Assembly: GCF_029893235.1 (NCBI RefSeq)
Contig: NZ_JARXWE010000006.1
Location: 1-64,000, forward strand
Length of the DNA stretch: 64,000 bases
Direction of reading: 5' to 3'
Origin: Dysgonomonas sp. PH5-45
GTDB lineage: Bacteria > Bacteroidota > Bacteroidia > Bacteroidales > Dysgonomonadaceae
The notes beneath the pieces are model-generated. The model saw only the letters and a list, made by a program, of their open reading frames with translations, did no database searches and had not been told where the DNA came from. A program made the translations under genes and the position numbers. Below, piece after piece: positions 34,776 through 42,282 of this stretch. How positions within the stretch are numbered: position 1 is the first letter of the stretch; each line of letters begins with the position of its first letter.

Positions 34776-35053
34776 TAGCTTTACGAGGCTATATTTATAA
34801 TTATTTGGCAATATCTTTCAATTTTGTTTATTACCTTTGTTTATAAGGAAATCTGTTGACCTGAAATTTGCAGGCTAAACGGTTTTATGTTCAATAGCAT
34901 GTGTGTTGTGAAAATGAGAGTATGAAAAAATACGTAATTTTGCGATGTGTAAATTGCAAAATGGATTATTTTTTGAAACGCAAACGTGTCAATAGATTTA
35001 AGGTTATCAACTAAAATAAAATTCCAAATCAATCAAGGATTAAACTATCCATA
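34776..35053 (+). promoter_or_regulatory. Upstream region of the hdr-flx operon
   Basis: Two candidate -7 elements are present: TACCTTTG at 34833-34840, with TTTG at 34805-34808 (24-base gap, longer than ideal), and TAATTTTG at 34935-34942. The leader would be about 110-215 bases. No gene is seen in this stretch. Two starts could allow dual regulation of the redox operon, but this is inference. Confidence 0.45.
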
Positions 35054-35620
35054 ATGGAGAAATCGGGCTATATATCGGAAATAAAAGAATATACGGAAAT
35101 CAATGTGAACCGTTGCTATCAGTGTGGAAAGTGTTCGGCAGGCTGTGCCATTGCCGGCGAAATGGACTATCCCCCAAGTATGGTGATGCGTATGTTGCAA
35201 ACAAATAATGAGGAAAATTACCAAAGCTTGTTGCAATCGCAAAGTATATGGTTGTGCGTGTCGTGTCAGAATTGTGTGACGCGCTGCCCTATGGAAATTG
35301 ATATTCCCCGGTTGATGGATTATATGCGTGAAAAGGCTTACAGGGAAAAGAAAGTAAACCGCAAGTCTTCAAATATACTATCGTTTCACAAAGCGTTCCT
35401 CGATTCGGTTAAACATACTGGACGGCTATACGAGATAGGGCTTGTGGCAGGCTATAAAATACGTACTCTGAATATTTTGCAGGATATGGATGTTGCCCCG
35501 TCAATGTTTATGAAAGGCAAACTACCAATTTTGCCCGAAATGGTGAAGGACAAGAAGCAACTGACTACTATATTTAAAGAGACGGAAAAAGACGCTTCGT
35601 CGTCTCATACCCAGAAATAA
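35054..35620 (+). CDS. hdrC: Heterodisulfide reductase subunit C-like protein
   Basis: This 188-residue iron-sulfur protein has two [4Fe-4S] motifs: C21-X2-C-X2-C-X3-C (RCYQCGKCSAGC) and WLCVSCQNCVTRCP, each of the HdrC type. The protein would pass electrons between HdrA and the catalytic HdrB. It is the first gene of a seven-gene redox cluster that also contains one lipoprotein gene. The C-terminal 60 residues are helical and lysine-rich. No heme-binding membrane partner (HdrE/DsrM type) is nearby, which favours the soluble HdrABC form. Confidence 0.88.
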   Translation: MEKSGYISEIKEYTEINVNRCYQCGKCSAGCAIAGEMDYPPSMVMRMLQTNNEENYQSLLQSQSIWLCVSCQNCVTRCPMEIDIPRLMDYMREKAYREKKVNRKSSNILSFHKAFLDSVKHTGRLYEIGLVAGYKIRTLNILQDMDVAPSMFMKGKLPILPEMVKDKKQLTTIFKETEKDASSSHTQK

Positions 35621-35683
35621 GTAAAAACAAAACTAACCGGGCATGGGCTTGGCTCACGCAAGGTGAACTATCATACAGAGAAG

Positions 35684-36532
35684 ATGAAAATAGGATTCTA
35701 TCCGGGTTGTTCGCTGAAAGGTACGTCCTCAGAATACGCCCAATCAACGTTAGCATTGGCAAAGGCTTTTGGTGTTGATTTAGTTGAAGTTGAAGACTGG
35801 AATTGCTGTGGGGCAACTGCCGCCCACAACCTCAGCCATGAGTTGGCAACAGCTTTGCCGGCTCGTATTTTGGCTTTGGCTCAGAAGCAAGGTTTGACCG
35901 AGCTTGTTATACCTTGTGCCGCCTGCTACAACCGTTTGAGTGTGACCCAGCACGAATTAAACAAAAATACTGCCTTGAAAACCCGTGTAGAGGAAATTCT
36001 GCAAATGCCACTCAGCGGAAATATTGAAATCCTCAACGTGATGCAGTTCGTAGAGAAATATATAGCTGATAAGATAGAGGAAAAAGTAACGACGCCTTTC
36101 AACCACAAGGTGGTGTGTTATTATGGCTGCCTGTTGGTTCGTCCGCACGATATTCTGAAGTTCGACCGTCTGGAAGATCCACAATCTATGGACTCCCTGA
36201 TGCGTAAGATAGGAGCCGAGTCGATGGATTGGGGCTACAAAACAGAATGTTGCGGAGCTGGATTTTCGGTATCGCGTACCGATATCGTAGCCAAACTATC
36301 GGGCAATATAGTAAAAGACGCTGCCGACCGTGGGGCCCAAGCTATCATTGTGGCTTGCCCTATGTGCCAATCCAATCTGGATATGCGCCGTAAACATATA
36401 AACAGTTATTTGCATCAGAAAGTAGATACTCCCGTTTTGTACATTACACAAGCCATAGGCTTGGCAGTGGGAGTCAGCCGTAAGGAGTTGGGGTTAGAAA
36501 AACTGTTTGTTGCTCCGGCATTTATAAATTGA
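35684..36532 (+). CDS. hdrB: Heterodisulfide reductase subunit B-like protein
   Basis: This 282-residue protein has two CCG domains, the cysteine-rich modules that hold the noncubane [4Fe-4S] clusters reducing disulfides in HdrB. The first module has YPGCSLKGTSSEY, DWNCCGA and IPCAACYNR. The second has CYYGCLLVRP, TECCGAGFS and VACPMCQSN. The ATG at 35684, preceded by AGAGAAG, gives the standard MKIGFYPGCS start; a GTG at 35663 is in frame but less likely. Both cysteine sets look intact, so a working disulfide reductase site is expected. Confidence 0.9.
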   Translation: MKIGFYPGCSLKGTSSEYAQSTLALAKAFGVDLVEVEDWNCCGATAAHNLSHELATALPARILALAQKQGLTELVIPCAACYNRLSVTQHELNKNTALKTRVEEILQMPLSGNIEILNVMQFVEKYIADKIEEKVTTPFNHKVVCYYGCLLVRPHDILKFDRLEDPQSMDSLMRKIGAESMDWGYKTECCGAGFSVSRTDIVAKLSGNIVKDAADRGAQAIIVACPMCQSNLDMRRKHINSYLHQKVDTPVLYITQAIGLAVGVSRKELGLEKLFVAPAFIN

Positions 36533-36545
36533 AAACTAAAAAACT

Positions 36546-38546
36546 ATGTCAAAGATAGGTGTATTTATTTGCCATTGCGGCGAAAACATCGGTGCTACTG
36601 TCGATTGTGAAAAGGTAGCAGCCGAAGCCGCAAAAATTGATGGTGTTGAATTTGCCACCGACTATAAATATATGTGTTCCGATCCCGGACAAACACTCAT
36701 CAAAAATGCCATTAAGGAAAAAGGACTGACGGGTGTTGTTGTGGGGGCTTGTTCGCCACGTATGCACGAACCTACTTTTCGCAAGGCTTGTGCCGAAGCT
36801 GGATTAAATCCATATCTGTGCGAGATGGCCAACCTGCGCGAACATTGTTCGTGGGTACACGAAAAAGGTGATGCCACTACCGGAAAAGCCATCGACTTGG
36901 TGCGCATGTTGGTCGAAAAAACAAAACGTAACAAATCGCTCACACCCATAAAAGTACCGGTGTCGAAAAAGGCGCTTGTTATTGGGGGAGGTATTGCCGG
37001 TATACAATCGGCTTTAGATATTGCCAATGCGGGGCATCAGGTTATTATGGTGGAAAAAGAGCCGTCCATAGGCGGGCATATGTCGCAGCTGTCGGAAACG
37101 TTCCCCACGCTCGACTGTTCGCAATGTATCCTCACCCCTCGTATGGTTGAGGTGGCGCAGCATCCCAATATCACACTTTATACATATGCCGAGCTTGAAA
37201 GTTTGGACGGGTTTATCGGTAACTTTAAAGCAACAATACGCCTCAAGGCAAAAAGTGTAGATTATAAAACCTGTACCGGATGTGGCGCATGTACAACAAA
37301 GTGTCCTACCAAGAAAATTCCGAGCGAGTTTAACGAAGGTTTGGGCATGCGCACGGCTATATATACGCCTTTTCCGCAGGCTGTACCCAATAAACCGGTT
37401 ATAGACAAGGAGCATTGCGCGTATTATCAGAAAGGAAAATGTAAAGTTTGTCAGAAGATATGCCCAACAGGAGCTATTGAGTTTGACAAAGAAGATGAAT
37501 TTATAACCGAAGATGTTGGGGCGATAGTTCTTGCAACAGGTTTTAATGTATTGAAACCCGACTTCTTCCCCGAATACGGATACGGAAAATATCCGGACGT
37601 GATTACAGGTTTACAGTTCGAGCGTTTGGCTTCGGCTTCGGGGCCTACTTTGGGCGAAATTCGCCGTCCATCGGATGGTAAAATTCCGCAAAAGATAGTG
37701 TTTATAGCCTGTGCCGGCTCGCGCGACCCAGCCAAGGGAATCCCGTATTGCTCTAAGATATGCTGTATGTACACCGCTAAGCATGCCATGCTCTACCAAC
37801 ACAAGGTACATGGTGGCGAATCGTATGTCTTCTATATGGATATCCGTGCAGGGGGTAAAAACTACGAGGAATTTGTGCGCCGTGCCATTGAAGAAGATGG
37901 AGCAAACTATTTGCGTGGGCGTGTGGCTCGTGTTTACGAGAAAAACGGCAAACTCGTGGTTTGTGGCGTTGATACGTTGATGGGAGCAAAACAGGTTGAG
38001 ATAGAAGCCGATATGGTTGTTCTTGCCACTGCGGGTGTAGCCAGTTGTGGAGCAGAAGATTTGGCGCAGAAAACACATGTCTCGTACGATGCCTACAATT
38101 TCTTTGCCGAAGCGCATCCTAAACTAAAGCCAGTGGAAACAAATACGGCAGGTATCTATCTGTGTGGGGCTTGCCAAGCTCCGAAGGATATACCCGATAC
38201 GGTAGCTACGGCATCGGGGGCAGCGGCTAAGGTAATTGGTCTGTTCTCGAACAACGAGCTGACCCGTGAGCCTATGGTAGCTGTTGTGAACAGGTCGGCT
38301 CCTCCGGTATTTTCTACTTGTGTGGGCTGCTTCCTTTGCCAGACGGCATGTCCGTATCAGGCCATTGAGCGCGAAGAAATTAAAAACCGTAACGGAGAGG
38401 TTATAAAAACAGTGGCTAAGGTAAATCCGGGGCTGTGTCAGGGTTGTGGAACGTGTGTCTCGTTCTGCCGTTCCAAATCGATCGACTTGGAAGGATTTTC
38501 GAACGAGCAAATGTATTCCGAAGTTTTGGCAGTGTTAGAAGAGTAG
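36546..38546 (+). CDS. hdrA: Heterodisulfide reductase subunit A-like flavoprotein
   Basis: This 666-residue FAD and iron-sulfur protein is the expected bifurcating subunit. The N-terminal region contains ICHCGENIG, and the FAD-binding Rossmann motif is LVIGGGIAGIQSA (residues 144-156). CSQCILTPRM follows. Ferredoxin-like cluster motifs occur at CTGCGACTTKCP (243-254) and CKVCQKICP (299-307), with two more near the C-terminus (CVGCFLCQTACP and CQGCGTCVSFC). In methanogen and bacterial complexes HdrA splits electron pairs between ferredoxin and the HdrBC disulfide site. It starts 13 bases after hdrB. Confidence 0.92.
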   Translation: MSKIGVFICHCGENIGATVDCEKVAAEAAKIDGVEFATDYKYMCSDPGQTLIKNAIKEKGLTGVVVGACSPRMHEPTFRKACAEAGLNPYLCEMANLREHCSWVHEKGDATTGKAIDLVRMLVEKTKRNKSLTPIKVPVSKKALVIGGGIAGIQSALDIANAGHQVIMVEKEPSIGGHMSQLSETFPTLDCSQCILTPRMVEVAQHPNITLYTYAELESLDGFIGNFKATIRLKAKSVDYKTCTGCGACTTKCPTKKIPSEFNEGLGMRTAIYTPFPQAVPNKPVIDKEHCAYYQKGKCKVCQKICPTGAIEFDKEDEFITEDVGAIVLATGFNVLKPDFFPEYGYGKYPDVITGLQFERLASASGPTLGEIRRPSDGKIPQKIVFIACAGSRDPAKGIPYCSKICCMYTAKHAMLYQHKVHGGESYVFYMDIRAGGKNYEEFVRRAIEEDGANYLRGRVARVYEKNGKLVVCGVDTLMGAKQVEIEADMVVLATAGVASCGAEDLAQKTHVSYDAYNFFAEAHPKLKPVETNTAGIYLCGACQAPKDIPDTVATASGAAAKVIGLFSNNELTREPMVAVVNRSAPPVFSTCVGCFLCQTACPYQAIEREEIKNRNGEVIKTVAKVNPGLCQGCGTCVSFCRSKSIDLEGFSNEQMYSEVLAVLEE

Positions 38547-38567
38547 AAAACTGAAAATTTTATAAAA

Positions 38568-39029
38568 ATGAAAAAACATATCTTATATACTTGCTTAGTG
38601 GCTGTTTTAGTGTCTTTTTCTTCATGCAAGACAACAGAATCAACAAATACAGATACAGGAAAAAAGAAAAATGTTGTTCATAAACTATATAATAAAGAAA
38701 CTTTTAAGATAGAAAAATATAGTGAAGATAAGTCTTACGGGTATACAGAAGAAAACCCTATAAAGGTTGGAGGAGCTTTGAAGAGCAAAGGACCAGAAAA
38801 TGAACGTCGATTTTTAAATGCTTTGGCAGGTCCTAATGGAGAAGTTATCACTTATATAAGAGGGGGTAATTGTTGTCCCTTTGAAACTGAAAACGGTTTT
38901 TTAGGCGGAGGCCTTTTAGACAAATATATAATATCGTATAAAGGATTGAAAGAAAATATTACTCTTTATATCAATATGTACGATTCGGAAGAATTAGCGG
39001 TTCCCGTTGGTTTTAAACTGAAATATTAA
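38568..39029 (+). CDS. Lipoprotein of unknown function inside the hdr-flx operon
   Basis: This 153-residue lipoprotein has a signal peptide and lipobox (VSFSSC, Cys20). The mature part matches a small Bacteroidetes lipoprotein family that databases sometimes label 2-dehydro-3-deoxyphosphooctonate aldolase without any aldolase motif. Visible family features are YGYTEENPIKVGG, GPENERRFLNALAGPNGE, RGGNCCPFE and ITLYINMYD. It lies between hdrA (21 bases) and flxD (16 bases) in the same direction. It is more AT-rich than its neighbours. An envelope lipoprotein has no obvious place in a cytoplasmic redox complex, so it is probably a later insertion. Confidence 0.75.
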   Translation: MKKHILYTCLVAVLVSFSSCKTTESTNTDTGKKKNVVHKLYNKETFKIEKYSEDKSYGYTEENPIKVGGALKSKGPENERRFLNALAGPNGEVITYIRGGNCCPFETENGFLGGGLLDKYIISYKGLKENITLYINMYDSEELAVPVGFKLKY

Positions 39030-39045
39030 TTATTGTAAAAAAACA

Positions 39046-39525
39046 ATGAGTAACGAATTTGAACCTAAAATAGTAGCATTTGTTTGTAACTGGTGTACTT
39101 ATGCCGGAGCAGACCTTACGGGAACAAGCCGTATCAAATATGCCTCTAACGTAAAGATTGTACGTTTTCCGTGTACGGGGCGTATAGACTTCATGCTGTT
39201 GCTGAAGGCTTTTGCAAACGGATCGGACGGAGTGATTGTTTCGGGTTGTCACCCGAACGACTGTCACTATACGTCGGGTAACTTCCACGCCCGCCGCCGT
39301 TGGATATTGTTCCGCAGTTTGTTAGACTTTTTAGGAATAGACATACGCCGCATTCAGTTTTCGTGGGTGTCGGCAGCCGAGGGTGCAAAATGGGCGGATA
39401 TAGTAAATACCACTGTAACAAATATCCGTGAGTTGGGGCCTTATACCGAATATCGTCGTGCTTCAAGTTTTCTGGAAGCTAACGAAGCCGACCTATCGAA
39501 AGAAATGGAGGTGACACATGAATGA
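39046..39525 (+). CDS. flxD: MvhD/FlxD-like iron-sulfur protein
   Basis: This 159-residue protein of the MvhD/FlpD/FlxD family carries a [2Fe-2S] cluster and links an electron-donating module to HdrA. It has VCNWCTYAGADLTG (C14, C17), RFPCTGRID (C43), and SGCHPNDCHY (C68, C73). In methanogens the partner is MvhAG hydrogenase; here the downstream genes encode an NAD(P)H-type flavin module, so electrons probably come from NADH. Its last eight bases overlap flxC. Confidence 0.9.
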   Translation: MSNEFEPKIVAFVCNWCTYAGADLTGTSRIKYASNVKIVRFPCTGRIDFMLLLKAFANGSDGVIVSGCHPNDCHYTSGNFHARRRWILFRSLLDFLGIDIRRIQFSWVSAAEGAKWADIVNTTVTNIRELGPYTEYRRASSFLEANEADLSKEMEVTHE

Positions 39526-40309
39526 TCTGAAAGCGAAAGTTAAAGATTTGTTTGAATCGGGAGCGATAAATCTTTTTATCGGATACGAAGAAGGTACACG
39601 CCGTCCACGTCCGCTTTTTGTGAAGAATGCCGAGGAGACCAATAAGCTTGTTTTTGACGACAGATGTTCGGGCAATCTGGCAGTTTACCTCACACGCAAA
39701 GATTTGATAGGGGGTAAGAAAGTAGGTATTGCGGCTTCTTATTATGCGCTGAAAAGTATAAATCAACTTGTGAGCGAAAATCAGTTGAGTGACGAATGGT
39801 TACGTGTTATCGGTCTGTCGGCAGATGGCAAATTGCTTGAATTCGGTTCGTTGGCTGAGGTGAGCGAGTATTTGAAAACAGCTTCGGCACCACCCAAACA
39901 AAACGAAGATGAATTGGTACGACAAATTGAAGCAATGACGATGGAAGAGCGTTGGCAATTTTGGTCGGACGAACTGTCGAAATGCTTTAAATGCTACGCC
40001 TGCCGCGCGGCTTGCCCGATGTGTTATTGTACCAAATGTATTGTTGAGGTAAACCGTCCGCAGTGGATACAGCCGTGGGCAACAACACTCAGCAATATGG
40101 AGTGGCAGATAAACCGTGTTATGCACATGGCGGGGCGTTGTTCTGACTGCGGCTCGTGTGGAGAGGCTTGCCCGTTGGGTATTCCTATCCATCTGTTAAC
40201 GCATAAAATGAGTGAAACGGTAGCTGCTAACTTTGGCCAGAATGGTGACGATAAGGGCAATGTGCTTTCTACATTCAAGCCCGAAGACAAGGAAAACTTT
40301 ATATTGTAA
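39518..40309 (+). CDS. flxC: FlxC-like 4Fe-4S protein
   Basis: This 263-residue protein has an N-terminal domain of about 140 residues without cysteine clusters. A C-terminal ferredoxin-like region carries motifs CFKCYACRAACPMCYCTKC and CSDCGSCGEACPLGIP, enough for two [4Fe-4S] clusters. It corresponds in position and type to FlxC of the FlxABCD-HdrABC complex and would pass electrons within the NADH-oxidising module. The ATG overlaps flxD by eight bases. Confidence 0.82.
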   Translation: MNDLKAKVKDLFESGAINLFIGYEEGTRRPRPLFVKNAEETNKLVFDDRCSGNLAVYLTRKDLIGGKKVGIAASYYALKSINQLVSENQLSDEWLRVIGLSADGKLLEFGSLAEVSEYLKTASAPPKQNEDELVRQIEAMTMEERWQFWSDELSKCFKCYACRAACPMCYCTKCIVEVNRPQWIQPWATTLSNMEWQINRVMHMAGRCSDCGSCGEACPLGIPIHLLTHKMSETVAANFGQNGDDKGNVLSTFKPEDKENFIL

Positions 40310-40325
40310 CGAAGAAAAGAGTCCT

Positions 40326-41366
40326 ATGGAAAGAAAATATATATCAGACGAGTCGCTAAAGACTTTCATCAATCAACTGAACGATGAAGGGCGGCATGTC
40401 TATGCACCTGTTGCCAAAGGCGAAAAAACGGAGTTTGAACGTGTAAAATCGTTCGACAAGATATCGTTAGATCATATACAAACAACCCAATCGATAAAAG
40501 CTGTGGCTTTTCCCCGTACCGAGAAGTTGTTTTCGTATACCAAAAATAAAGGAGATGTTACGCTCGAGGATTATAATCCTGATTTGATTCCGGAGATGGT
40601 TGTCTTTGGACTTCACCCTTGCGATGCAGCAGGCTTTAAGCCTCTTTCTAATATATTTAACTGGGGAACTCCCGATGTGCCGTTCAATGAACGTCGCCGA
40701 CGAACAACGCTCATTGCGATGAGTTGTACACAGAGCGATGAGTTCTGTTTCTGCACGTCGGTCAATGGTGGGCCGGGCAATACCGCAGGTAGTGATATTC
40801 TGCTCACACCTATTAAGGACAAGAATGGGTATCTGGTGGAAGTTGTGTCTGAAAAAGGGCAGGAGCTTGTCAGCAAATACGCCGGCTTATTTGGTGAGGC
40901 TCCCGATGTTGATAAAGAAGCATATCTGGCAAAACTTTCGCGGAAATTCAGTCTGGATGATTTACGAGGCAAGATATCGCATATGTTCGAGAGTGAGGTA
41001 TGGAAAAAACAATCGGAACGCTGTTTAGGCTGTGGAGCTTGCGCTTTTGTGTGCCCTACGTGTGCTTGTTTCGATATTCAGGAGGATACCAAAGGAAGTA
41101 AAGGCAACCGTTTGCGTTGCTGGGATTCGTGCGGATTCTCCCTGTTTACATTCCATACATCGGGACATAATCCGCGCGAGGTGCAAAGCCAACGTTGGCG
41201 TCAACGTTTGTTGCATAAGTTTTCGTATATGCCCGAACGCCTGTCGGTGGTAGGCTGTACGGGTTGCGGGCGCTGCTCAAGGGCATGTCCTGTGGATATG
41301 AACATATCAGACCATTTGGCAGAGATAGCCGATTTAAGTGTAGTAACAACCGAAAAAGAAAAATAA
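40326..41366 (+). CDS. flxB: FlxB-like 4Fe-4S dicluster protein (HydB/AsrA family)
   Basis: This 346-residue protein resembles the beta subunit of sulfhydrogenase and AsrA of anaerobic sulfite reductase. The N-terminal two thirds has FGLHPCDAAGF, CTQSDEFCFCTS and WDSCGFSLFTFHTSGHNPR, typical of the family. Ferredoxin motifs are CLGCGACAFVCPTCACF (233-249) and CTGCGRCSRACP (311-321). It would relay electrons from FlxA towards FlxC/D. The ATG at 40326 is chosen because upstream in-frame codons lie inside flxC and the homologous start is MERKYI-like. Confidence 0.87.
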   Translation: MERKYISDESLKTFINQLNDEGRHVYAPVAKGEKTEFERVKSFDKISLDHIQTTQSIKAVAFPRTEKLFSYTKNKGDVTLEDYNPDLIPEMVVFGLHPCDAAGFKPLSNIFNWGTPDVPFNERRRRTTLIAMSCTQSDEFCFCTSVNGGPGNTAGSDILLTPIKDKNGYLVEVVSEKGQELVSKYAGLFGEAPDVDKEAYLAKLSRKFSLDDLRGKISHMFESEVWKKQSERCLGCGACAFVCPTCACFDIQEDTKGSKGNRLRCWDSCGFSLFTFHTSGHNPREVQSQRWRQRLLHKFSYMPERLSVVGCTGCGRCSRACPVDMNISDHLAEIADLSVVTTEKEK

Positions 41367-41371
41367 AGGCG

Positions 41372-42208
41372 ATGGATAGCAATATATATTTACCTAATCT
41401 GATGATAGTTGAAAAAATTACACAGGAAGCACCGGGTGTAAAAACTCTCAGATTGAAGTTTAAGGACGAGGAATTTGGACAGAAGTTCGAGTTTAAAGCC
41501 GGACAATTTGCCGAATATTCAGCCTTTGGCGAGGGCGAATGTACTTTCTGTATAGCATCTTCGCCAACCCGCAAAGGGTACGTAGAATGCACCTTCAGGG
41601 AAGCAGGACGGGTAACGTCGGCTTTGGCAAAGCTCGAAGAAGGCGATACAATGGGCTTCCGTGGACCTTACGGAAACACTTTCCCGATAGATGAATGGAA
41701 AGGTAAAAATCTGCTGTTTATTGCCGGAGGTATTGCCCTTCCGCCCATGCGTTGCGTGATATGGAATACTCTTGATACACGGGAGAATTTTGGCGACATA
41801 AGCATCGTTTACGGAGCAAAATCGCCTGCCGATTTGGTGTATAAGCACGAACTGAAAGAGTGGGGCGAACGCCCTGACGTGAAACTTGCCGTTACGGTCG
41901 ATCCCGGAGGCGAAACTCCCGATTGGAAAGGTGAAGTAGGTTTCGTTCCGGCCGTGGTCGAAAAAATGAATCCATCGCCCGAAAACACAATAGCCATCGT
42001 TTGCGGCCCCCCGATAATGATAAAAATGACGTTTCCGGTATTGGATAAACTCGGATTCAAACCCGAAAATATTTATACCACGCTCGAGAATCGTATGAAG
42101 TGTGGGGTAGGGAAATGCGGACGGTGTAATGTAGGCGAAAAATATGTCTGCAAAGACGGGCCTGTTTTCTCTCGTTTGGAATTAGAAGCTTTGCCTGCCG
42201 AATATTAA
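41372..42208 (+). CDS. flxA: FlxA-like FAD/NAD(P)-binding oxidoreductase
   Basis: This 278-residue protein belongs to the ferredoxin-NADP reductase-like group that includes sulfhydrogenase HydG, AsrB and PyrK. The FAD domain has KAGQFAEYS and GRVTSAL, the nucleotide domain has LLFIAGGIALPPMRCV and VCGPPIMIK, and the C-terminal [2Fe-2S] loop is MKCGVGKCGRCNVG...YVCKDGPVFS. It is the expected NADH entry point. The ATG at 41372 is preceded by AAAGG and lies five bases after the flxB stop. It closes the operon and a terminator follows. Confidence 0.87.
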   Translation: MDSNIYLPNLMIVEKITQEAPGVKTLRLKFKDEEFGQKFEFKAGQFAEYSAFGEGECTFCIASSPTRKGYVECTFREAGRVTSALAKLEEGDTMGFRGPYGNTFPIDEWKGKNLLFIAGGIALPPMRCVIWNTLDTRENFGDISIVYGAKSPADLVYKHELKEWGERPDVKLAVTVDPGGETPDWKGEVGFVPAVVEKMNPSPENTIAIVCGPPIMIKMTFPVLDKLGFKPENIYTTLENRMKCGVGKCGRCNVGEKYVCKDGPVFSRLELEALPAEY

Positions 42209-42237: not shown

Positions 42238-42274
42238 AAAGCTGGTTTTATACAAAAACCGGCTTTTTCTTTTG
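42238..42274 (+). terminator. Terminator of the hdr-flx operon
   Basis: A 12-base stem with one G-U pair (AAAGCTGGTTTT at 42238-42249 and AAAACCGGCTTT at 42255-42266) is followed by a TTCTTTT tail. Confidence 0.8.
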
Positions 42275-42282
42275 CCAGTTGG

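Follow-up and report, generated by a model that had tools for sequence, protein, structure and literature searches.

The window analyzed in this work, a stretch of 64,000 nucleotides from the gut-type Bacteroidales bacterium Dysgonomonas sp. PH5-45 (contig NZ_JARXWE010000006.1, positions 1 to 64,000), carries an hdrCBA-flxDCBA operon encoding a complex of the FlxABCD-HdrABC type, and this locus raises the question of the partners with which such a complex would exchange electrons in a genome where no DsrC is found. The comparative data reported here point to a headless Nuo, i.e., a complex I devoid of NuoE, NuoF and NuoG, and to the absence of Rnf/Nqr, and not to a thiol partner. Our reading, to which we give about an even chance, is that the product of the operon is a soluble FlxABCD-HdrABC complex that connects the pools of NAD and ferredoxin, with the headless Nuo as membrane partner. 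The kind of cluster was already known, and our analysis suggests that its tie to the headless Nuo and to the absence of Rnf/Nqr, instead of DsrC, is the part worth following.

Subunits and cofactor sites of the complex

The seven hdr and flx genes Table 1 are co-directional on the forward strand at 35054-42208 and have no internal stops. Spacing between neighboring genes, overlaps included, does not exceed 63 bases, a value reached between hdrC and hdrB (42 bases if hdrB starts at the GTG opening its frame at 35663 rather than at the ATG at 35684). The contiguity of hdrABC and flxABCD that characterizes FlxABCD-HdrABC is thus found here, with one extra lipoprotein-like open reading frame (ORF) at the hdrA/flxD junction. 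The complete HdrCBA-FlxDCBA set announced by the initial annotation of this DNA was confirmed, all seven genes being present with every cluster ligand intact; its count of seven is right for the hdr/flx genes and overlooked the eighth ORF. The stem-loop and T-run following flxA are a probable operon terminator.

Table 1. Coordinates and features of the hdr-flx operon in the window
Feature	Position	Strand	Characteristics
hdrC	35054..35620	+	Two [4Fe-4S] clusters, 8 invariant Cys; Pfam Fer4_8/Fer4_17
hdrB	35684..36532	+	282 aa from ATG; two CCG domains; predicted catalytic disulfide-reducing subunit
hdrA	36546..38546	+	666 aa, FlpD not fused; predicted FAD + multi-[4Fe-4S] bifurcating subunit
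Lipoprotein-like ORF	38568..39029	+	153 aa, between hdrA and flxD
flxD	39046..39525	+	MvhD/FlpD-like link, 5 invariant Cys
flxC	39518..40309	+	Dicluster ferredoxin subunit, 11 invariant Cys
flxB	40326..41366	+	AsrA/HydB/ShyB-like iron-sulfur subunit
flxA	41372..42208	+	FAD/NAD(P) + [2Fe-2S] electron-input subunit, PyrK/AsrB/HydG-like
Stem-loop + T-run 3′ of flxA	about 42238-42275	+	Read directly from the letters, no terminator-tool score

Searches of Pfam, NCBIfam and PDB sequences agree for each subunit, HdrA, HdrB, HdrC and FlxD each matching its counterpart in solved methanogen Hdr complexes, and ligand conservation was established on alignments of 74 to 101 relatives, depending on the subunit. 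HdrA matches 5odc_A (E = 2e-202), and its best NCBIfam model is NF040770 (HdrA2), with 754 bits, under the family cut-off of 1100; its cluster cysteines are conserved across 101 aligned sequences, and the flavin domain and [4Fe-4S] ligands expected for bifurcation are present at the sequence level. HdrB contains PF02754 twice and matches 8rvv_B (E = 1e-35), and the ten CCG cysteines (16, 48, 49, 85 and 88; 156, 196, 197, 232 and 235, numbered from the GTG start) are invariant in 86 sequences, in agreement with the two intact CCG domains previously assigned to it. An affiliation of HdrB to the SdhE family (SdhE/MfrE of 8-methylmenaquinol:fumarate reductase) was not retained: it scores 161 bits for a cut-off of 500, and its partners in the cluster are Hdr and Flx proteins, not flavoprotein or Fe-S partners of a fumarate reductase. 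HdrC matches 7bkb_C (E = 2e-10), with an NCBIfam score under the cut-off (57.8 bits) and eight cysteines that are 100% conserved across 78 sequences.

Among the Flx proteins, FlxD matches PF02662 (163 bits) and 7bkb_F (E = 1e-46), and FlxC matches the C-terminal ferredoxin part of 7bkb_E (E = 5e-19), which belongs to the F420 formate dehydrogenase subunit of a solved methanogen Hdr complex. FlxB (PF17179, with conserved motif cysteines) and FlxA (PF00970, PF00175 and PF10418) are related to the beta and gamma subunits of sulfhydrogenase 9nez, respectively (9nez_B, E = 5e-46; 9nez_C, E = 4e-68). FlxA has FAD, NAD(P) and [2Fe-2S] sites, the four [2Fe-2S] cysteines being invariant in the alignment. 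On the basis of these sequence features, we infer that the complex would couple NADH, ferredoxin and a disulfide.

Distribution of the cluster

The scan of species genomes for HdrA retrieved at least 588 relatives. In the best 80, for which gene order was inspected, all contigs of sufficient length but a few show the seven-gene set in the same order. On the Bacteroidota side, its hosts include Dysgonomonas macrotermitis, Dysgonomonas sp. HGC4, Bacteroides oleiciplenus, Alistipes sp. dk3624, Segatella paludivivens and uncultured Bacteroidales; these best 80 relatives also include sets from Ignavibacteria, Chlorobiaceae, Geobacteraceae, Acidobacteria and Planctomycetes. A set found across so many taxa is therefore ordinary in kind. 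It had been presented initially as described mainly in sulfate reducers and other anaerobes; the data do not support a feature chiefly of sulfate reducers, since many other phyla and about 10% of the sampled Bacteroidales (38 of 393 genomes, with an orthologous HdrA of ≥69% identity, two partial copies included) carry it. These 38 genomes are an upper estimate for complete sets because one of them (G057; G, L and C numbers are our handles for genomes, loci and contigs) has an HdrA without adjacent hdrB and hdrC. The title of Ramos et al. 2015, as cited in PMC5861303, already calls FlxABCD-HdrABC “widespread in anaerobic bacteria”. In the tree of 53 HdrA sequences, the window falls among Dysgonomonadaceae (support 89/69 with the five nearest rows and 96/87 one step out).

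Orthologs of HdrA devoid of hdrB/C or flx neighbors were observed in a Candidatus Azobacteroides metagenome-assembled genome (L006:10001-11980) and in G057 (L137 from 6820), and are either solitary HdrA or remnants of decayed clusters. FlpD was detected in 131 of the 393 Bacteroidales genomes in several architectures, among them FlpD within frames of about 700 aa and clusters with a more distant HdrA, indicating that Hdr-type complexes are diverse in this order.

DsrC as a candidate partner

In the classical arrangement, exemplified by Desulfovibrio vulgaris, the complex reduces or oxidizes the disulfide of a DsrC-type protein; a passage of PMC10504309 cites Ferreira et al. 2023 for an interaction of the D. 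vulgaris complex with DsrC. The complex encoded by the window is homologous to that of D. vulgaris, and 13 of the 38 cluster-bearing Bacteroidales do carry DsrC. Against such a role, a profile search of the whole window genome (2.65 Mb in 75 contigs, 99.99% complete) found no DsrC, extending to the genome what had been noticed in the window alone; none was found either in any of the six sampled members of its family, and the window genome has no siroheme sulfite reductase (NIR_SIR). Overall, DsrC is present in 121 of the 393 Bacteroidales genomes, with the same frequency whether the cluster is present (13/38) or not (108/355; p = 0.71), and is therefore not a general partner of the complex in Bacteroidales. 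DsrC was thus rejected as a hidden partner, and we consider the classical arrangement very improbable: for the window genome it is already refuted, unless the partner is an unrecognized DsrC-like protein outside Pfam. The lack of DsrC makes cluster-bearing Bacteroidales that are devoid of Rnf/Nqr a favorable setting in which to look for a different disulfide reduced by HdrB.

Conserved neighboring genes were also considered as a clue to the substrate and rejected: among 35 related loci compared with flanks of up to 10 kb, nothing beyond the seven genes occurs in more than five, the commonest extra item being a reverse-strand shadow of flxD and the remaining ones being unrelated. A dihydroorotate dehydrogenase-like protein is encoded near hdr-flx in a few genomes (L127:7129-8160, NF005741 with 399 bits; L142, L025, L031 and L034) and is not a general feature. 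Elsewhere in the window genome, a CCG domain was found in only one protein, which is LutA-like; on contig C16 (L123:6605-9332), LutA-, LutB- and LutC-like genes, read from ORFs, follow a lactate-permease-like gene.

Redox partners in the window genome

Profile searches of the window genome revealed neither the Rnf/Nqr core (RnfA/RnfE/NqrD/NqrE family, PF02508) nor an [FeFe] hydrogenase (Fe_hyd_lg_C), which answers in part the proposal of the initial annotation to look for Rnf and hydrogenases; no MvhA or MvhG ORF lies in or beside the cluster, no genome-wide [NiFe] search having been made. The genome has PFOR/KOR, with three POR_N genes whose frames span 1255, 623 and 362 aa, the first one being of the PFOR type. 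It also has a single nuo locus (L146, contig C30) that includes nuoA, nuoB, a fused nuoCD, nuoH, nuoI, nuoJ, nuoK, nuoL, nuoM and nuoN and is devoid of nuoE, nuoF and nuoG, and that therefore encodes a headless Nuo. The RnfC profile gives NuoF-like proteins of other genomes about 38-50 bits, and none is listed for the window genome above about 37 bits; this speaks against a nuoF located elsewhere.

A full-length, divergent RnfC (437 bits) is encoded by the window genome, only within a shortened ApbE-RnfC-RnfD set, and a canonical Rnf was therefore rejected. This Rnf-like operon (L122:7997-11659; contig C10, about 34996-38658) consists of a small membrane-protein-like ORF and genes for ApbE, RnfC and RnfD, without RnfA, RnfB, RnfE or RnfG, the RnfD profile matching in two stretches that are both below the cut-off. 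Sets of like composition, with ORFs read by eye, surround rnfC in G133, G308 and Dysgonomonas macrotermitis (L124-L126).

Rnf/Nqr and Nuo in cluster-bearing Bacteroidales

PF02508 is present in 345 of the 393 Bacteroidales genomes, usually in four copies that we took as Rnf plus Nqr. It is missing from 25 of the 38 cluster genomes compared to 23 of the 355 others (Fisher p = 3e-17), and all four copies are found in only two of the 38; six more genomes with a more distant HdrA (58-65%) are likewise devoid of PF02508. The contrast is also seen within families: in the 20 families holding both kinds of genomes, PF02508 copies are fewer in cluster genomes in 17, more numerous in two and equal in one (p = 0.0007). 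Furthermore, in a comparison with 33 same-family genomes without the cluster, which we picked from the 51 available, canonical RnfC is rarer in cluster genomes (8/38 versus 27/33, p = 3e-7) and complex-I-type NuoH more frequent (37/38 versus 17/33, p = 7e-6). This scarcity of Rnf/Nqr was unexpected and is a tendency, not a rule, since Rnf is kept and Nqr lost in some cluster genomes, the opposite holds in others, and three cultured species keep a canonical RnfC. For the same reasons, a strict replacement of Rnf by Hdr-Flx was rejected.

The absence of Rnf/Nqr together with the presence of PFOR would also fit a complex that works mainly in reverse, by confurcation: NAD+ would be reduced jointly by ferredoxin from PFOR and by a dithiol of the cell, a substitute for the ferredoxin:NAD activity of Rnf in a succinate/propionate-type fermentation. 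The linkage with nuo described below would then mean that Nuo and Hdr-Flx compete for one ferredoxin or that it is supplied from one to the other. According to passages of PMC10542786, fermentation by Prevotella requires a ferredoxin:NAD oxidoreductase, a function that Rnf fulfills there; a passage of PMC12125255 describes reverse operation of the complex during fermentation for Nitratidesulfovibrio vulgaris. However, confurcation requires a dithiol electron source, none of which was identified, and linkage with nuo is less expected if ferredoxin simply passes its electrons to NAD. We regard this alternative as rather doubtful.

Linkage of hdr-flx with headless nuo

In several Bacteroidales, the hdr-flx and headless nuo genes are physically linked. 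In G129, G247, G227 and G069, nuoA lies downstream of flxA in the same direction (with one dihydroorotate dehydrogenase-like gene in between in G129) and is followed by nuoB, C, D, H, I, J, K, L and M, without nuoE, F or G between D and H. In G094, the order is hdrC, hdrB, hdrA, nuoA, nuoB, nuoC, nuoD, a nuoH region overlapped by a reverse-strand ORF, nuoJ to nuoN, a gene for a 115-aa protein, flxD, flxC, flxB and flxA. A similar nested order extends over two contigs in G196, one ending with hdrCBA-nuoA-nuoB-nuoD and the other starting with nuoH to nuoN, a 113-aa protein gene and flxDCBA. In addition, nuoM-nuoN is located upstream of flxD in G162, and nuo and hdr are divergent neighbors (hdrC/nuoA) in L012 and L013. 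The HdrA of G227 groups with Ignavibacteriota, at a distance from the others; this genome nevertheless shows the same flxA-nuoA arrangement. The recurrence of several arrangements in several families argues for a probable functional tie between hdr-flx and nuo. Titles, abstracts and passages of the open literature yielded no report of a pairing of Hdr-Flx with Nuo in Bacteroidales.

A conserved protein of 109-115 aa (LTKGKHxIxEI...GIRCTVVETG...WNQ) is encoded beside nuoN in five genomes, and directly before flxD in two of them (L129:3807-4151; L132 from 7640; L133 from 11924; L134 from 14860; L136 from 9012); the L129 copy, the only one searched, has no NCBIfam match.

A closer association can be envisaged, in which Hdr-Flx would dock on the headless Nuo as its missing electron-input (N) module, forming one NADH:menaquinone/ferredoxin/disulfide machine. 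The nuo genes nested between hdrA and flxD (L129; L150 plus L132) or located right after flxA, without nuoEFG, speak for such a machine. Nevertheless, a shared operon does not show contact, most cluster genomes, that of the window included, have the two sets of genes apart, and several relatives bearing Nuo have no cluster, so that docking appears quite unlikely.

The same linkage bears on the reading that Nuo and Hdr-Flx are present, and Rnf/Nqr missing, merely as markers of Bacteroidales of different respiratory make-up, without any functional tie. The correlation is indeed observational, and Rnf coexists with the cluster in some cultured gut species. The within-family contrasts (17 lower, two higher) and the physical linkage, seen in no fewer than three distinct gene orders, speak against this explanation, which we consider unlikely.

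Proposed role of the complex

In the reading that we prefer, with Nuo as membrane partner of a soluble complex, FlxA would take a hydride from NAD(P)H, and FlxB, FlxC and FlxD would wire the electrons to the flavin of HdrA. HdrA would then split them (or merge them, in reverse) between ferredoxin and, via HdrC, the double-cluster disulfide site of HdrB. In a cell with PFOR/KOR and without Rnf/Nqr core or [FeFe] hydrogenase, the complex would join the NAD and ferredoxin pools, and the headless Nuo would pass electrons between ferredoxin and menaquinone. What we infer in this scheme is bifurcation itself and its direction, NADH rather than NADPH as donor, ferredoxin as the carrier common to the complex and Nuo, and which disulfide is used.

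Several observations weigh against this role. The window genome has both the cluster and nuo, on separate contigs (C6 and C30, respectively) and without linkage, and no gene for an acceptor was seen beside the cluster in the window. The cluster and a canonical RnfC occur together in Bacteroides oleiciplenus, Alistipes sp. dk3624, Segatella paludivivens, G247 and G144. Nuo can work without Hdr-Flx, since many sister genomes have Nuo and no cluster, and three genomes of the window's family are devoid of both Hdr-Flx and Rnf/Nqr. Finally, the same-family controls were of our own choosing, and the correlation between the cluster, Nuo and Rnf/Nqr could reflect a shared lifestyle.

If extended to the order, this role would make the Bacteroidales FlxABCD-HdrABC the hitherto missing partner with which headless complex I exchanges electrons, in an alternative NADH-ferredoxin-menaquinone energy-conserving system that replaces Rnf/Nqr and uses a thiol/disulfide pair other than DsrC. 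We put this forward tentatively, as a possible generalization that is less probable than the role proposed above. Two open questions meet here, that of the donor of the headless Nuo and that of the ferredoxin:NAD oxidoreductase of succinate/propionate fermenters. Concerning the former, the NUO of B. fragilis is described in a passage of PMC7002350 as having no NADH activity, its donor being drawn as an unknown Xred, and a passage of PMC10542786 calls for experiments on the donor of the 11-subunit Nuo. Cluster-bearing Bacteroidales without Rnf/Nqr are natural test cases, and cultured relatives in Dysgonomonas carry the same cluster. If the link to Nuo is true, current schemes of energy conservation would have to be redrawn for a sizeable fraction of Bacteroidales.

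The hdrA-flxD junction

The 153-aa ORF has no Pfam match and only a signal-peptide-length NCBIfam match, and tblastn found no relatives in the other sampled loci, so that it is private to the window genome within the sample. It is probably an insertion because it has no relatives and unrelated inserts occupy the same junction in other genomes; it was rejected as an eighth subunit on the same grounds. The inserts observed at this junction are mutually unrelated: the lipoprotein-like ORF, a GxxExxY-like ORF (in G133), a four-helix-type ORF, several genes or the nuo operon (L152:7628-8002, L028:11989-12547 and L004:11995-15879, besides the window). In the nuo locus of the window genome, an exported-looking ORF of 162 aa between nuoM and nuoN (L146:4278-4763) recalls the lipoprotein-like ORF inside hdr-flx.

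Comparison with known systems

The window shares its seven subunit types with the FlxABCD-HdrABC of Desulfovibrio (Nitratidesulfovibrio) vulgaris, and the order hdrCBA-flxDCBA is written identically for Bilophila wadsworthia in a passage of PMC12125255. Unlike these two systems, that of the window is accompanied by neither DsrC nor sulfite reductase, has no neighboring gene common to the sampled relatives and includes a lipoprotein-like ORF at hdrA/flxD, whereas other Bacteroidales sets are linked to headless nuo. HdrA, HdrB, HdrC and the MvhD-like link are clear homologs of those of the MvhADG-HdrABC complex of methanogens (5odc), but the operon has an NAD(P)H module (FlxA/B/C) and no MvhA or MvhG, and the methanogen heterodisulfide is not expected as a substrate. 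HdrA2 of the HdrA2B2C2 complex of Methanosarcina acetivorans provides the best NCBIfam model for HdrA; in contrast to that complex, the FlpD part is a separate gene in the window and the predicted donor is NAD(P)H, not F420H2. FlxB and FlxA are homologous to the beta and gamma subunits of sulfhydrogenase (HydB/HydG, 9nez) and to AsrA/AsrB, but the cluster includes neither hydrogenase subunits nor AsrC, and the genome has no NIR_SIR. Lastly, the window genome has a headless 11-subunit Nuo like that of Bacteroides and Prevotella; it is a complex separate from Hdr-Flx, and its genes adjoin hdr-flx in relatives.

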